In this document: positions 6,027 through 52,321 of the stretch, in pieces
How the letters are laid out: each line of letters opens with the position of its first letter
Position numbering within the stretch: position 1 is the stretch's first letter
Source of the DNA: Devosia sp. Root413D1
GTDB lineage: Bacteria > Pseudomonadota > Alphaproteobacteria > Rhizobiales > Devosiaceae
Assembly: GCF_001425235.1 (NCBI RefSeq)
Contig: NZ_LMEA01000011.1
Span: forward strand, 1-64,000
Reading direction: 5' to 3'
Length of the DNA stretch: 64,000 bases
Notes under the pieces: generated by a model
The model's database searches: none
What the model saw: the letters and a program-made list of their open reading frames with translations, nothing else
What the model was told of the DNA's origin: nothing
Program-made: the position numbers and the translations under genes

Positions 6027-6875
6027 TTAGGATCCCGCGTGATCCATTTCGAGGAGCCAACGCAAGAAGGCTACCCCTTGGCTGATCATAAGGACCGCTA
6101 AACTCTCGGGTGGCTGGTGCGGCTCTTCCTGCCCTTGTTCGTGCCTGTAGGGTTGGGCCGAGTCCACCCAGTTTGCAAAGCTCCTAACTAGGTTCAGAAA
6201 GGCGGCCTTTTCTGCAGGGTCCTCAATGGCCTTGCCCTTGGGGTCAAGATTCACCGTCACGTATTTGGCGACCAGCCGATTAGCCTCCGGGAACATCATC
6301 CTGAAAAGCCCCTCGACTGCGGTAAACGTGCCACGAACTCCAACCTTCCAATCGGGCTCGGGCTGATCAATTGCCTTTAAGGCCTTGTCGAGTTCCGACC
6401 GGACATTGTTGTACCTAGCCTTCCCCAGAAGTTTGAGAGCGTGTTCGACTTCGGCGGAGAATACCCTGTCGATCGAAGGATGCACGCCTCCCAACTCGTC
6501 GACCCGGTAGGCCACATTCTCTTCGCTGAGGATACGTGCGACTGAAGGTACCCACCGTCCGACCTTTAGGAAGGTGTAGGACCTCTCGCCACGCTCTCTC
6601 TGGATGACGAACCTCGCGACCGCGGTAATGAAGTGGATCACGTCAAGGTCGGAGATCGACGCTACGAACTTCTCGTAGTTAGGCCCACCTGCGCCCCAAG
6701 GCACTTTGATCCCCAGTTCACTCTCAATGAAATGGGAGAGGAGCGCTCCTTCTACGGGACTCAACGCTTTTGCCAACCGCAGTCTGGCACGATCGCCAAA
6801 TGTGTTCTCGGGGTCGCCGCGCTCAATGTAGAGCTGGCGGAAGTATCGCCCGATTGGTGGTTCTTCAGCCGCCAT
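6027..6875 (-). CDS. uncharacterised protein with HEPN/abortive-infection-like C-terminus
   Basis: This 282-residue soluble protein has no signal peptide or membrane segment. The C-terminal third has a helical layout with FANWVDSAQPYRHEQGQ, a polar Arg-His motif, then a helix ending FLRWLLEMD. That layout recalls HEPN-type RNase domains in abortive-infection proteins, but the resemblance is by eye only. Its DNA is visibly less GC-rich than its neighbours and uses more A/T-ending codons, which suggests transfer. It lies 37 bases beyond the nnr stop, convergent with the P450. A defence role is a hypothesis. Confidence 0.75.
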   Translation of the reverse strand: MAAEEPPIGRYFRQLYIERGDPENTFGDRARLRLAKALSPVEGALLSHFIESELGIKVPWGAGGPNYEKFVASISDLDVIHFITAVARFVIQRERGERSYTFLKVGRWVPSVARILSEENVAYRVDELGGVHPSIDRVFSAEVEHALKLLGKARYNNVRSELDKALKAIDQPEPDWKVGVRGTFTAVEGLFRMMFPEANRLVAKYVTVNLDPKGKAIEDPAEKAAFLNLVRSFANWVDSAQPYRHEQGQEEPHQPPESLAVLMISQGVAFLRWLLEMDHAGS

Positions 6876-47916: not shown

Positions 47917-50900
47917 ATGCTGATGACCTCAGACATTCCAACGATGCTGCGGCTGCACCGGGCGATGTTTCTCGCCCGTGAGATCGACCGCGTGGAACAA
48001 GACCTGGTCAAGCAGGGCCTTGCGCATTTCCATGTCTCGGGCGCCGGCCACGAGTCGACGGCACTGATCGCCGATTATCTCGGTCAGCAGGACTGGCTGC
48101 ACCTGCACTATCGCGACAAGGCGCTGCTTCTGGCGCGTGGCCTGCCGCTGGTCGAATTCTTCCGCAGCCTGCTCGCAACTGGCCCCTCGCACTCCGCCGG
48201 CCGCCAGATGAGCGCGCACTATTCGGCCCGCGAGCTGAATGTCGCCTCGATGGTCGGCCCGGTCGGCAACAACGCGCTGCACGCCGTGGGCAACGCCCAG
48301 GCGGTGAAGTTCCACCCTGATTCTCCGGTGGTGATCTGTTGCGTCGGCGACGGCACGACTCAGCAGGGCGAGTTCCTCGAGGCGGTCGGCGAAGCGGTGC
48401 GCACCGGCGCCCCGGTGGTCTTCGTCATCCAGAACAATAACTGGGCGATTTCGACCAAGACGCCGGGCCAGACTTTCTTCGATCTGCCCACCGGCCCCGC
48501 CGACAGCTTCCTCGGCCTGCCGATCCGCCGCGTCGACGGCGTCGATCTGGCCGCTACGCGCGCCGCCTTCGAATCCGCGGTGACCCATACCCGCGCTACC
48601 CGCGGCCCGGCGCTGCTGCTGATGGAGCTCGAGCGGCTGTCGGATCACACCAATGCCGACGACCAGGCGCTCTATCGCGCCGCCGACGAGCTGAAATCGG
48701 GCAAGAGCCGCGATCCGCTCGAAGCCATCCGCCAGTCACTGCGCGAGTCGCAGATGGGCGACGCGGCCCTGGCGCAGCTCGAAACCAGCCTGATCGCCGA
48801 AGTGGCGGCGGCCGTCGCCGAGGCGCGGGGCGAAGCCGTGCCTGAGACCGCCGGCCAAGCCAAGGCGCCCTACCCGCCCGAGTTTGCACACGCCAAGGAA
48901 TACCGCGGCGATGCCAAAGTGTCGAACCTGACCATGCGCGAAGCCCTCAACCGGGTGCTGCGCGATCAGCTCGCCGCCAATCGCGACGTGCACCTGCTCG
49001 GCCAGGACATCGAAGACCCGAAGGGCGACGTCTTCGGCGTCACCAAGGGCCTGTCGACTGCTTTTCCGGGTCGCGTCCGCAACGCCCCGCTCTCCGAATC
49101 GACCATTGTCGGCACTTCGATCGGCCGCGCCCTGACCGGGCAGCGGCCGGTGGCGTTCATCCAGTTCGCCGATTTCCTGCCGCTCGGCTTCAACCAGATC
49201 ATTTCCGAGCTCGGCTCGATGTACTGGCGCACCGATGGCAGCTGGCAGGCGCCGGTGATCCTGATGGTCAGCTGCGGCGGCTACAAGGCAGGCCTCGGCC
49301 CGTTCCACGCCCAGACCCTCGAATCGATCCTGGCCCATGTGCCCGGCATCGATGTGGTGATGCCCTCGAGCGCCGGCGACGCGGCCGGGCTGCTTAACGC
49401 CGCCTTCCAGAGCAAGCGGCCGACCGTCTTCCTCTACCCCAAAAGCGGCCTCAACCTTTCCGACCGTCGCACCTCCGACGATACGGCGAAGCAATTCGTG
49501 GTCCCCGGCAAGGCGCGCGCCGTGCGCCAGGGCAACGACCTGACGCTGGTCACCTGGGGTAACCCGCTGACCCAGTCGCTGCTCGCCGCCGAGACGCTTT
49601 CGGGCGCCGGCGCCGAGCTCGACGTCATTGACCTCCGCTCGATCTCGCCCTGGGACGAGGATGCCGTGCTCCGCTCGGTCCGTCGCAGCAAGCGGCTGCT
49701 GGTGGTGCACGAGGACAATCACACTGCCGGCTTCGGCGCCGAAGTGATGGCGACAGTGATGGAAAAGGCCGGTCTCCCGGTCAGCGCCAGGCGCGTCACC
49801 CGCGACGACATCCACGTGCCGTTCCAGTTCGAGCGGCAGATCGATACCCTCCCCTCCTACCGCCGGATCATGGAAGCCGCCGCCGCGCTGCTCGAGTTCG
49901 ATCTCGCATGGGAAGCGCCCAGGGCCGATGCCGGCCCTGCCGCCATCGCGGCGATCGGCTCGGGCCCCGCCGACGATGAAGTCGAGGTCGTCGAGCTCCT
50001 GGTGAAGCCGGGCGACATGATCAAGACCGGCGATCTGGTCGCGGTCGTCGAGGCCACCAAGGCCGCCGTCGACGTACAGGCGACCGTCACTGGCAAGGTG
50101 CTGTCGATCCCGGTCGAACCCAAGCAGAAGATCGCCGTGGGCGCACCGCTGATGTTCGTCGAGGCCGACGCCTCGGTGGCGCGGCAGCAGGCGACCGTTA
50201 CCGCCGAGCGCATCGACAAGGCCATCCTGAAGCGCCGCGGCGCGCCGCAGCCCGCCCCCGTTACCATCGGCCGCGCCGAGGTTCCCGTGGGCGTTGCCGG
50301 CATTGCCGGGATCACCGGCGGGCGCAAGGTGCACAATGCCGACCTCAAGGGCAACTGGCAGACCCGCGACGCCGGCGACATCGTCAAGCTGACCGGCATC
50401 GAGAGCCGTCGCTGGGTGCAGCCTGGTGAGACGGTATTTTCCCTCGCCGTGTCCGCCACGCAGAAACTGCTCGACGAGCAGCAGCTCGAGATCGGCGACA
50501 TCGACCTGGTGATCGCGGCCACCGGCACACCCGATGTGATCACCCCGTCGCTTGCCTGCCGCGTCGCCGACGCGGTCAGCACCGCCGGTCGAGCCAGCCT
50601 GCCGGCCTACGACATCAATGCCGCCTGTTCCGGCTACCTCTACGCGCTGGCCAATGCCCGCGACTACGTCACCAACAACCCGGACGCCCGGGTCCTGGTG
50701 GTGACGTCAGAGGTGCTGTCGCCGCTGCTCGACCAGAACGACTTCAACACCGCTGTGCTGTTCGCTGATGCCGCCACTGCCTCCTTGGTGCAGGGTCCGG
50801 GTCACGAACAGCCGACGCTGTTCACCTTTGCCCAGCCGACGATCGCCGGCGCGCCGGAATCGGGCGAGCTGCTGAGCGTGCCGCGCGCCGGTGAGGGCTA

Positions 50901-51240
50901 TATCAAGATGAATGGCCGCGAGGTGTTCGCCGACGCCGTCCGCGCCATGTCGGCGACGCTGACCTCGGCCTGCGCGGCGGAAGGCATCACCATGGACGAT
51001 ATCGACCTGATGGTGCCGCACCAGGCCAACCAGCGCATCATCGACGCCATTGCCCGCCGCTCGGGCCGCCCGGCCCACTCGATCATCCGTAACCTCGGCA
51101 ATACCAGTTCCTCGACCATCCCGCTGGCGCTGATGGACGCGCTGCCCACCACCAAGCCCGGCGACCGGCTCGGCCTCGTCGCCTTCGGTGGCGGCATCAC
51201 TTACGCGGCGGCAATCGCCACGGTGGGTTCGGGGCGCTAG
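47917..51240 (+). CDS. E1alpha-E1beta-lipoyl-ketoacyl synthase III fusion protein
   Basis: This 1107-residue protein fuses four modules. Residues 1-310 are a 2-oxoacid dehydrogenase E1 alpha with the TPP motif GDG(144-146)...NNN(173-175). Residues 336-665 are E1 beta. Residues 698-768 are a lipoyl domain with Lys715 in EATKAAV. Residues 795-1107 are a KAS III with Cys904, His1035 and Asn1062. There is no E2 acyltransferase or E3. It could decarboxylate a 2-oxoacid, load the acyl on its own lipoyl arm and pass it to the synthase, avoiding acyl-CoA. That reaction is inferred. It stands alone; its 3' end overlaps the convergent LuxR gene by 44 bases. Confidence 0.93.
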   Translation: MLMTSDIPTMLRLHRAMFLAREIDRVEQDLVKQGLAHFHVSGAGHESTALIADYLGQQDWLHLHYRDKALLLARGLPLVEFFRSLLATGPSHSAGRQMSAHYSARELNVASMVGPVGNNALHAVGNAQAVKFHPDSPVVICCVGDGTTQQGEFLEAVGEAVRTGAPVVFVIQNNNWAISTKTPGQTFFDLPTGPADSFLGLPIRRVDGVDLAATRAAFESAVTHTRATRGPALLLMELERLSDHTNADDQALYRAADELKSGKSRDPLEAIRQSLRESQMGDAALAQLETSLIAEVAAAVAEARGEAVPETAGQAKAPYPPEFAHAKEYRGDAKVSNLTMREALNRVLRDQLAANRDVHLLGQDIEDPKGDVFGVTKGLSTAFPGRVRNAPLSESTIVGTSIGRALTGQRPVAFIQFADFLPLGFNQIISELGSMYWRTDGSWQAPVILMVSCGGYKAGLGPFHAQTLESILAHVPGIDVVMPSSAGDAAGLLNAAFQSKRPTVFLYPKSGLNLSDRRTSDDTAKQFVVPGKARAVRQGNDLTLVTWGNPLTQSLLAAETLSGAGAELDVIDLRSISPWDEDAVLRSVRRSKRLLVVHEDNHTAGFGAEVMATVMEKAGLPVSARRVTRDDIHVPFQFERQIDTLPSYRRIMEAAAALLEFDLAWEAPRADAGPAAIAAIGSGPADDEVEVVELLVKPGDMIKTGDLVAVVEATKAAVDVQATVTGKVLSIPVEPKQKIAVGAPLMFVEADASVARQQATVTAERIDKAILKRRGAPQPAPVTIGRAEVPVGVAGIAGITGGRKVHNADLKGNWQTRDAGDIVKLTGIESRRWVQPGETVFSLAVSATQKLLDEQQLEIGDIDLVIAATGTPDVITPSLACRVADAVSTAGRASLPAYDINAACSGYLYALANARDYVTNNPDARVLVVTSEVLSPLLDQNDFNTAVLFADAATASLVQGPGHEQPTLFTFAQPTIAGAPESGELLSVPRAGEGYIKMNGREVFADAVRAMSATLTSACAAEGITMDDIDLMVPHQANQRIIDAIARRSGRPAHSIIRNLGNTSSSTIPLALMDALPTTKPGDRLGLVAFGGGITYAAAIATVGSGR

Positions 51241-52321
51241 CGGTCGGCACCAGCCCCTGCAGCAGGCCGACCAGATCGGCCTGTCGATGCATGCCGGTCT
51301 TACCGAATACCGCCTGCACCTGGTTGCGCACGGTCGCCGCGCTGGCGCCGGTGCTCGAGGCGATCTGGCCGATGGTCATGCCGCCGCCGAGCGCCCGGGC
51401 GATCCTCGCTTCCGCCGGCGTCAGGTCGAACAGCCCCTGAATCACCGTGGCATCGGGCAACTCGCGCAGGGTCACCGGCGTCATCAGCAACACCGCTGCC
51501 GCCCCGGTGAACACTTCGCGAGCCGACGCACGGATCGGCAGGATGTGGGCCACCATTGCCGCATTGCCGTCCCCCGCGGGAACGGGGATCGAGCGCACCG
51601 GCCCGGTATGGAGCCCGGCCTCCGCGGCCTCGAGCGCCGTGGTCAGCATCTCGTCGGCCCGCGGATTGGCGAGACCCAGGCGCGTCGGGCGCGACTGCAC
51701 CACCGAGGGGGTCAGCGCCTCCAGCATGCCGTTGGTGGCGATGGCTGCACCGCGCGGTCCGAGGACGGCCGCGGGAATGCCGACCATCTCGAGCGCCGCG
51801 ACGGCTCCCTGGGCGCGCTCGAAGGCGATGCGCGCCGACATCAGTGCCGCCCGCGCCAGGTGCGGCCGCAGCAGGTCGAGGCGCTCCACCACTTCGCGCT
51901 CCACCGGCCCATCCTCGAGCCGGCGCTCGCCGTGGAAGATCAGCAGATCGCCGGTCGGCACCTTGATGCCGGTTGCCACGCCCCAGCCAAAACCGCGCGG
52001 CACGAAGAACTCCTTGCGGATTGGGTCGGCTTCCCATTCCTCGCGGCTGAACACATCGAGATCGGTGACGAAGCCGGGATGGTCGTAGGCGAGGAGGCGC
52101 GCTGTACGGTCGTCGCGCCCAGGGTAGCCGCCCTCAAAATAGCCGCGTGACATCTCCTGCAAGCCTGGCGACGCCGTCCAGTGAGCAGCCTCGCCGCGCA
52201 CCGCAAACAGCACCGTTCCCGCGACACCGCCGAGCTCCCCGAGTTCCTCGAGCACGCGCGGCCAGAGATCGGGGACAGCCCCGGCCTCGTAAATTCTGTC
52301 GACTAGTTCGTCGTCCTCCAT
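51197..52321 (-). CDS. LuxR-type helix-turn-helix regulator
   Basis: This 374-residue protein has a C-terminal LuxR HTH (about 295-360: FDLTPAEARIARALGGGMTIGQIA, then ATVRNQVQAVFGKTG) and a long N-terminal region with no receiver phosphorylation site and no autoinducer-domain signature. It is convergent with the fusion gene, overlapping it by 44 bases, and may regulate it. A GTTACCGGTAAC palindrome lies 87 bases upstream of its ATG. Confidence 0.88.
   Translation of the reverse strand: MEDDELVDRIYEAGAVPDLWPRVLEELGELGGVAGTVLFAVRGEAAHWTASPGLQEMSRGYFEGGYPGRDDRTARLLAYDHPGFVTDLDVFSREEWEADPIRKEFFVPRGFGWGVATGIKVPTGDLLIFHGERRLEDGPVEREVVERLDLLRPHLARAALMSARIAFERAQGAVAALEMVGIPAAVLGPRGAAIATNGMLEALTPSVVQSRPTRLGLANPRADEMLTTALEAAEAGLHTGPVRSIPVPAGDGNAAMVAHILPIRASAREVFTGAAAVLLMTPVTLRELPDATVIQGLFDLTPAEARIARALGGGMTIGQIASSTGASAATVRNQVQAVFGKTGMHRQADLVGLLQGLVPTASAPNPPWRLPPRK

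Follow-up and report, generated by a model that had tools for sequence, protein, structure and literature searches.

We found that a single gene of Devosia sp. Root413D1 joins both halves of a 2-oxoacid dehydrogenase E1, a lipoyl arm and a ketoacyl synthase III (KAS III) on one polypeptide. The product is probably a self-contained 2-oxoacid-primed ketoacyl synthase: its lipoyl arm would hand an acyl group to the cysteine of KAS III for condensation with malonyl-ACP, bypassing CoA. The gene is one intact frame of 1107 codons at exactly 47917-51240 (+) of the window, meaning the whole 64,000-nucleotide stretch of contig NZ_LMEA01000011.1 that was analyzed, and a description of such a fusion was not found in the literature searched. 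The sequence-only reading that first drew attention to the gene had described this single polypeptide, and each Pfam family it anticipated (E1_dh, Transket_pyr, Transketolase_C, Biotin_lipoyl and ACP_syn_III) was matched. The features are as follows.

47917..51240, + strand: whole fusion gene, 1107 aa, ATG start, stop codon 51238-51240 (ORF and Pfam)
47959..48840, + strand: E1 alpha domain, residues 15-308, PF00676 (E1_dh, Pfam 1.8e-44)
48346..48438, + strand: ThDP motif GDG...N, residues 144-174 (alignment)
48928..49833, + strand: E1 beta half, with Glu394 and His464 (Pfam and alignment)
Residues 338-512: Transket_pyr, in the E1 beta half (Pfam 8.5e-25)
Residues 531-639: Transketolase_C, in the E1 beta half (Pfam 1.6e-27)
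49975..50154, + strand: lipoyl domain Biotin_lipoyl, residues 687-746 (Pfam 3.2e-10)
50059..50061, + strand: codon of lipoyl-site Lys715 (Lys in 61/61)
50167..50283, + strand: fast-changing linker between lipoyl domain and KAS III, residues 751-789
50284..51228, + strand: KAS III domain, residues 790-1104 (Pfam and alignment)
50377..50379, + strand: Asp821, aligned with FabH Trp32 (alignment)
50626-50628, + strand: Cys904 codon, KAS III
50743..50745, + strand: Phe943, aligned with FabH Arg151 (alignment)
51019-51021, + strand: His1035 codon, KAS III
51100-51102, + strand: Asn1062 codon, KAS III
Residues 898-965: ACP_syn_III (Pfam 4.3e-19)
Residues 1019-1101: ACP_syn_III_C (Pfam 3.8e-23)

As the earlier reading had also noted, the window protein contains no E2 catalytic (PF00198), E3-binding or E3 domain by Pfam at E <= 0.001. 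At the same threshold a peripheral subunit-binding domain was matched neither here nor in the 43 fusion members scanned, and PF00198 is not one of the 15 families that those members match. A structure model of the fusion protein (mean pLDDT 88.4, pTM 0.68) supports the predicted individual domains, but not how they sit relative to each other.

In the proposed mechanism, the ThDP-dependent E1 half would decarboxylate a 2-oxoacid and reductively acylate a lipoyl group on Lys715, after which the arm would swing to the KAS III half and pass the acyl group to Cys904. KAS III would then condense the Cys904-bound acyl with malonyl-ACP to give a 3-oxoacyl-ACP, and the arm would be reoxidized by the dihydrolipoamide dehydrogenase (E3) common to the cell's other complexes. 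KAS III would thus stand in for the E2 acyltransferase, bypassing CoA. Branched fatty acids are primed by a branched-chain 2-oxoacid dehydrogenase complex together with a separate FabH. The overall chemistry of that system is the same as that proposed for the fusion, but it employs several proteins and free acyl-CoA, whereas the fusion is one chain with no E2. Actinobacterial OdhA, a two-in-one 2-oxoglutarate dehydrogenase in the part of the source available to us (PMC10415282), likewise uses a single polypeptide both to decarboxylate oxidatively and to transfer the acyl group. Its transfer step, in that same part, is succinyl transfer rather than the ketosynthase condensation proposed here.

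Fusion members come from Devosia, Rhizobium, planctomycetes, verrucomicrobia and others, and a search of 72,556 plasmid records gave no plasmid copy at 1e-100. We counted residues over 61 fusion representatives with less than 90% identity to each other. The residues named in the earlier reading are widely kept: Lys715, Cys904, His1035 and Asn1062 in 61/61, and within the ThDP motif Gly144 and Asn174 in 61/61 and Asp145 in 60/61. Mapping by alignment to PDB E1 chains placed Glu394, His464 and His244, which we take to be the catalytic residues of E1, in all 61 as well. These conserved features suggest that chains may start directly from keto acids without coenzyme A. A point against the proposal is the lipoyl motif, which reads EATKA in the window copy; the usual Asp before the Lys occurs in 20/61 representatives.

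The KAS III half shares with FabH its fold, the Cys/His/Asn triad, the deeper channel residues and Arg249, and KAS III chains among the 50 Foldseek matches listed have TM values, by target, of 0.79-0.92. Its scores fall on both sides of curated cut-offs, the window protein lying below that of TIGR00747 (217 bits, cut-off 292.1) and above that of PRK09352 (256.2, cut-off 249). The His and Asn of the triad are those of condensing KAS III enzymes. Deeper FabH residues are nearly invariant among the fusions (Thr37 in 60/61, Gly209 in 61/61, Asn247 in 60/61 and Arg249 in 61/61). In contrast, the position of FabH Lys214, presumably one of the ACP-docking residues, holds Lys or Arg in 31/31 FabH controls versus 14/61 fusions, and because of this low count ACP docking of the fusion KAS III may differ from that of FabH. 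For malonyl-ACP as the proposed extender, Arg249 argues in favor and the Lys214 position argues against docking of the FabH kind.

The same position lends weight to another account, in which the KAS III half takes the lipoyl-borne acyl but acts as an acyltransferase or uses an acceptor other than malonyl-ACP (a hydroxyl, an amine or a different carrier protein, for instance). Some relatives of KAS III do transfer to other acceptors, and no conserved partner gene, ACP or fatty-acid gene was found beside the fusion when neighboring ORFs were clustered over 59 loci. We nevertheless consider such an acceptor rather unlikely, since the full decarboxylative triad and Arg249 are kept in 61/61. The 59 loci comprised 39 of the first 44 representatives and 20 further stretches, with L028 in place of the window copy, the short Devosia loci L014, L015, L016, L018 and L019 left out, and two entries (L173 and L191) that appear to duplicate L082 and L092; ORFs were chosen by length rather than by a gene caller. 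The largest cluster covered 8/59 loci at varied positions on both strands, and a conserved operon was rejected on this scatter. Clusters of 7 and 6 loci fell mostly inside related Pirellulales or verrucomicrobia, and smaller cross-lineage clusters (e.g. L093/L095/L096/L174, L064/L065/L088/L094 and L034/L037/L048/L106) again varied in position. Pfam gave no match for 7 of 30 chosen neighbors and varied matches for the others, which include topoisomerase, BipA, prolyl-tRNA synthetase, helicase, transporters, aminotransferase, desaturase and squalene synthase. With no conserved neighbors, function is therefore not readable from context. At L106 an aminotransferase lies 12 bp downstream of the fusion; it was rejected as a BioF candidate, being a general PLP aminotransferase in the best 25 of 86 NCBIfam matches.

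Unlike the fusion, FabH has a Trp32/Arg151 clamp and Phe87 and no preceding lipoyl arm. FabH Thr28, Trp32 and Arg151 contact the adenine of CoA, according to the part of the published account available to us (PMC4606726). These positions are Thr, Trp and Arg in 31/31 FabH controls, which were the top-scoring FabH sequences from one phylum, versus 0/61 fusions at the aligned places. As read from the alignment, however, loss of the clamp is less clean than this count implies. In 13/61 fusions (12 verrucomicrobial loci and L090) the Thr28 position, a helical turn away from Trp32, is occupied by a Trp that might still stack on adenine, and these nearby-Trp members supply 13 of the 14 fusions with Lys or Arg at the Lys214 position. 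Trp occurs anywhere in 813-825 in 24/61 fusions, the window copy included, and an Arg lies close to the Arg151 place in two (L065 and L080); none of the 61 has both a nearby Trp and a nearby Arg. By the same alignment the pantetheine channel and Arg249 are retained although the adenine clamp is gone.

The nearby Trp of these 13 fusions, together with the E2 found elsewhere in all 16 fusion genomes checked, favors a purely physical linkage, in which a separate E2, supplied by the E1-lipoyl part, would make acyl-CoA for KAS III to use as FabH does. We regard this as improbable, given that Trp32 and Arg151 are both missing at their places in 61/61, that the fusion is one clade retained over several phyla, and that KAS III fills the E2 domain position. 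In the window genome PF00198 is matched twice at E <= 1e-15, once adjoining the PDH genes, and so no spare E2 is evident there. An unfused E3 was found somewhere in 15/16 fusion genomes checked, with G454 giving none at E <= 1e-60.

The place that KAS III takes in the fusion is that of E2 in the closest E1 relatives, which are single chains. The top-scoring E1 sequences outside the fusion family are E1-E1-lipoyl-E2 chains from Planctomycetota and Verrucomicrobiota (L142-L144 and L166-L171), which share the order E1 alpha, E1 beta, lipoyl, are 37-41% identical to the window copy in E1 and carry the lipoyl Lys in 9/9, but end in the E2 acyltransferase PF00198 (9/9) where the fusion has KAS III. 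The E1 halves of the fusions form one clade (SH-aLRT 100) adjoining one of two E1-E2 groups, a neighbor branch with a support of only 87 in a tree for which the tool warned of long branches. The KAS halves also form one clade, separate from 32 FabH and 2 other KAS III sequences (100/99), and the two clades are consistent with one old fusion event. Direct priming without an acyl-CoA pool, as first proposed, gains support from the clamp loss, the E2-equivalent position of KAS III, the active-site conservation and this single origin, while lipoylation, hand-over to Cys904 and condensation are steps we infer from sequence only.

Among PDB chains, the E1 alpha half scores highest against a Thermus 2-oxoacid dehydrogenase (146.6 bits), followed by human branched-chain E1 (102.5) and a PDH (90.4). 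The E1 beta half scores 200 bits against the Thermus protein, 192.3 against a chain titled pyruvate dehydrogenase, 165.9 against P. putida branched-chain E1, 159.7 against a PDH and 149.7 against human branched-chain E1. The 2-oxoisovalerate of the earlier reading was a guess: the E1 alpha half is nearest branched-chain-type E1 among PDB chains, and the E1 beta half does not discriminate. Nothing in the sequence analysis points to the branched primer, signal or special lipid suggested as product.

BioZ is primed by glutaryl-CoA and has no E1 or lipoyl part. Like the fusion, it is a KAS III with an unusual primer in the available part of its description (PMC8024396). A lipoyl version of BioZ would take 2-oxoadipate through glutaryl-lipoyl to 3-oxopimeloyl-ACP in a branch to biotin. 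BioZ structures are among the Foldseek matches listed, and FabH Phe87, whose position we assume sets acyl-pocket size, is replaced by Thr or Ser in 59/61 fusions, which would widen the pocket. This route is nonetheless very doubtful: the BioZ glutaryl pocket is Ser84/Arg147/Ser287, and the place mapped to Arg147 (by offset and the BioZ-like L192) holds Arg in only 8/61 fusions; no biotin gene was recognized by Pfam among the 30 neighbors scanned. Against NF004623, BioZ-type only by our guess, the window protein scores 168 bits versus 437, and with 0/10 genomes above the cut-off this comparison is uninformative.

The layout recurs in several phyla, with all six domains in one frame in 43/43 divergent members scanned by Pfam. 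One frame longer than 1000 aa is present at 78/79 fusion loci, of which L029 and L100 run into a contig end, and the sole interrupted copy seen is in Devosia genome G008 (L020, L061), broken within the KAS domain. Comparison of the window copy with five orthologues gives a dN/dS of 0.06-0.21 for every segment (E1 alpha, E1 beta, lipoyl, KAS), at a dS of 0.6-1.3 that is near saturation. Sequencing or assembly error joining separate genes, to which the G008 copy might be taken to point and which the earlier reading had named as one possible refutation, is refuted and has practically no chance of being the cause, because the scanned members and loci hold one frame.

On balance, we favor the view that the family represents a new class of condensing enzyme whose ketosynthase Cys would be loaded by an acyl-lipoyl arm rather than by acyl-CoA or acyl-ACP, so that chains would begin directly with 2-oxoacids. 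The class would have arisen once, by exchange of E2 for KAS III, and occurs today as a one-gene module in several phyla. As commonly taught, KAS III needs acyl-CoA or acyl-ACP to start a chain. If the proposal is true, the lipoyl arm is an acyl donor to a ketosynthase, and 2-oxoacid metabolism feeds directly into the initiation of fatty-acid or polyketide chains, with CoA skipped. The proposed route resides in one stand-alone gene, except for E3 and the malonyl-ACP supply, and its catalytic residues are known, so it is testable with one purified protein. Such an enzyme could also be a compact tool for starting chains from chosen 2-oxoacids, and its evolution would clearly illustrate how a condensing enzyme can replace an acyltransferase behind the same arm.

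The window comes from a 5.85-Mb genome in 14 contigs, in which the fusion is one gene:

47917-51240, + strand: fusion gene, a single 1107-aa ORF with E1 alpha, E1 beta, lipoyl and KAS III domains

Its closest named relatives are in D. insulae DS-56 (97%) and Devosia sp. 66-14 (96%). A 374-aa ORF (51197-52321, - strand) overlaps its final 44 bases, with LuxR-type regulator matches that are weak and below the cut-off. Scanning genome contigs confirmed 115 places, and the best 80 of the 115 were kept, giving 79 loci. The fusion runs in one frame of more than 1000 aa in 78 of these (two end at a contig boundary), and Pfam found all six domains in 43/43 aligned members. The sequence-only reading, which had expected these domains in one polypeptide rather than in separate genes joined by error, is thus borne out, and its proposed survey recovered the same fusion in several phyla. 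The sole exception, L061, has an interrupted frame; in L020/L061 (Devosia genome G008) the break lies within the KAS domain, reflecting a pseudogene or an assembly error.

The distribution is patchy, with the fusion rare in our Pseudomonadota (2/398 genomes, the window's own counted) and Planctomycetota (3/246, centre genome counted) samples and present in about one-tenth of the Verrucomicrobiota sample (20/194, centre counted; 18 of the 20 are complete and two truncated). Within the window's genus, 18 further genomes divide into 11 that carry it (one from residue 27 on), one in which it is interrupted (G008) and six that lack it. The 79 loci are labelled as Devosia, Rhizobium (R. lusitanum, R. 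tropici, R. rhizogenes and further species), Tabrizicola, Rhodobacter, Caedibacter, Rheinheimera, planctomycetes, verrucomicrobia, relatives of Francisellaceae and Thiotrichales, Neisseriales and Burkholderiales, with many of the genomes assembled from metagenomes; the list is not a census. On one planctomycete-labelled contig (L104), a partial second E1 alpha copy (6213-6824, 60-62% to the window) precedes a complete fusion 57% identical to the window's, possibly through transfer or mis-binning.

To follow conservation, 80 distinct fusion sequences were reduced to 44 by removing those at least 90% identical, joined by 21 complete fusions from the three phylum samples (65) and refiltered to 61 (L108, L147, L149 and L157 out), with a mean pairwise identity of 49% and a minimum of 40%. 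All 61 keep Glu46, His64, Tyr65, Arg66, Gly144, Asn174, His244, Asp248, Glu394 and His464 in E1, and Glu712, Lys715, Cys904, His1035, Arg1040 and Asn1062 in the lipoyl and KAS domains, so the active-site residues described earlier as intact in the window copy are kept across these representatives; Asp145, in the TPP motif, is present in 60/61. Lys715 is preceded by Thr (25), Asp (20), Ser (11), Glu (4) or Ala (1), and thus the usual DKA-like form occurs in a third of fusions; 14/43 members also matched glycine cleavage H-protein, a lipoyl protein. Comparison of the window copy with five orthologues gave dN/dS of 0.06-0.21 in each of the four domain segments (E1 alpha, E1 beta, lipoyl, KAS) and dN of 0.17-0.51 in linker 751-789. 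An AlphaFold2 model built with 43 family members reached a mean pLDDT of 88.4 and pTM of 0.68, with lowest confidence at residues 1-4 and linker 776-787. In Foldseek, the structures that it matched best were of two kinds: E1 beta chains, with a target-normalised TM of 0.93 for Thermus, and KAS III chains, with 0.79-0.92 among the 50 matches listed.

We found that relatives matching only the E1 half (four in Planctomycetota, six in Verrucomicrobiota) are likewise long chains, and nine of the ten carry a C-terminal E2 acyltransferase domain (PF00198); the frame of the remaining one, L145, is disturbed, and the domain result covers the other nine. These single-chain E1-E1-lipoyl-E2 proteins (L142-L144, L166-L171) all have the lipoyl Lys and an E2 motif FDHR..NG (9/9 each), with Asn at a place where Asp is usual. 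In an E1 tree of 74 rows (quick method; four of eight candidate outgroup chains, the rest matching over half only), the 61 fusion E1 halves form one clade (SH-aLRT 100), adjoined with 87 by three planctomycete E1-E2 chains and then by six verrucomicrobial ones, with long branches separating the outgroups from the rest. In a KAS tree of 95 rows (careful method), the 61 KAS halves likewise form one clade (100/99), separate from 32 FabH and two other KAS III, with long branches on L090 and both other KAS III. On this evidence, the domain behind the arm is either an E2 passing acyl to CoA or, in the fusion family, a KAS III, and this placement is the strongest reason to suppose that the KAS III accepts acyl from the arm. 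The window's genome also encodes a second E1 alpha-E1 beta-lipoyl chain (G000:C12:424602-426881; L002; L206:6456-8936; 817-827 aa), which stops after the lipoyl domain, the genome's two E2 matches lying on other contigs.

In FabH, CoA adenine is contacted by Thr28, Trp32 and Arg151, and pantetheine by Arg36 and deeper residues, according to PMC4606726. We compared the fusions with 31 FabH controls, namely L004 from the window genome itself and the 30 top-scoring matches from 60 Pseudomonadota genomes (54 with a match). Trp32 is present in 31/31 controls versus 0/61 fusions (Asp 42, Ala 8, Glu 6, Gly 3, Met 1, Lys 1), as is Arg151 (Phe 41, Pro 9, Gln 6, Tyr 3, Leu 1, Ala 1) and Thr28, whereas Arg36 (31/31) persists in 44/61 and Lys or Arg at 214 (31/31) in 14/61. 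Thr37 (60/61), Gly209 (61/61), Asn247 (60/61) and Arg249 (61/61) are retained. Judged from the alignment, the Trp32/Arg151 clamp is lost as a pair in all 61 fusions. This reading is not clean, because 13/61 (L150-L153, L155, L156, L158-L163, all verrucomicrobial, plus L090) carry a Trp where FabH has Thr28, a single turn away from the Trp32 position, and stray Trp or Arg occur nearby: some Trp within 813-825 in 24/61, the window copy included, and Arg within 940-946 in L065 and L080, with both together in 0/61. All 13 Trp-bearing fusions have Lys or Arg at 214, versus 1/48 others; how this sub-group binds CoA or ACP may be different. Some members of the family may therefore be less altered and could retain weak CoA binding. 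Phe87 walls the primer pocket in FabH, and its place is taken by Thr or Ser in 59/61 fusions, so the fusion pocket should be wider.

No neighbour family is conserved beyond 8/59 fusion loci, which suggests a gene that works by itself; its context does not reveal the product. Seven related Pirellulales loci (L067, L069, L074, L077, L078, L081, L084) share a homologous ORF 3' of the fusion, after 7-22 bp or, in L078, overlapping it by the start chosen; that of L069 is a two-domain BMC shell protein. In Rhizobium lusitanum, OlsE (ornithine-lipid hydroxylase, L037:6759-7754) lies about 220 bp upstream. At E ≤ 1e-15, PF00198 matches the window genome twice: on C7 beside PDH genes, and on C1 in what is taken as the E2 of the 2-oxoglutarate complex. 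At least one E2 was found in 16/16 fusion genomes checked, and E3 at E ≤ 1e-60 in 15/16; this E3 could serve the arm in trans.

We propose that the E1 half, given its conserved catalytic residues, would decarboxylate a 2-oxoacid and reductively acylate lipoyl-Lys715, which would carry the acyl to Cys904, a transfer suggested by the KAS III/E2 swap and the lost clamp. The Cys/His/Asn triad and Arg249 point to condensation with malonyl-ACP, less firmly because so few fusions keep Lys or Arg at 214, and a shared E3 would reoxidise the arm. Exact-word searches of the open-licence PMC literature, which would miss other wording, found no description of such a fusion and no paper joining lipoyl arm, ketosynthase and starter unit; the sole paper that they returned for such a fusion concerns an actinobacterial two-in-one 2-oxoglutarate dehydrogenase. 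Each domain is already known singly, and if the hand-over from lipoyl arm to KAS III were proved, the fusion would be a new class of condensing enzyme.
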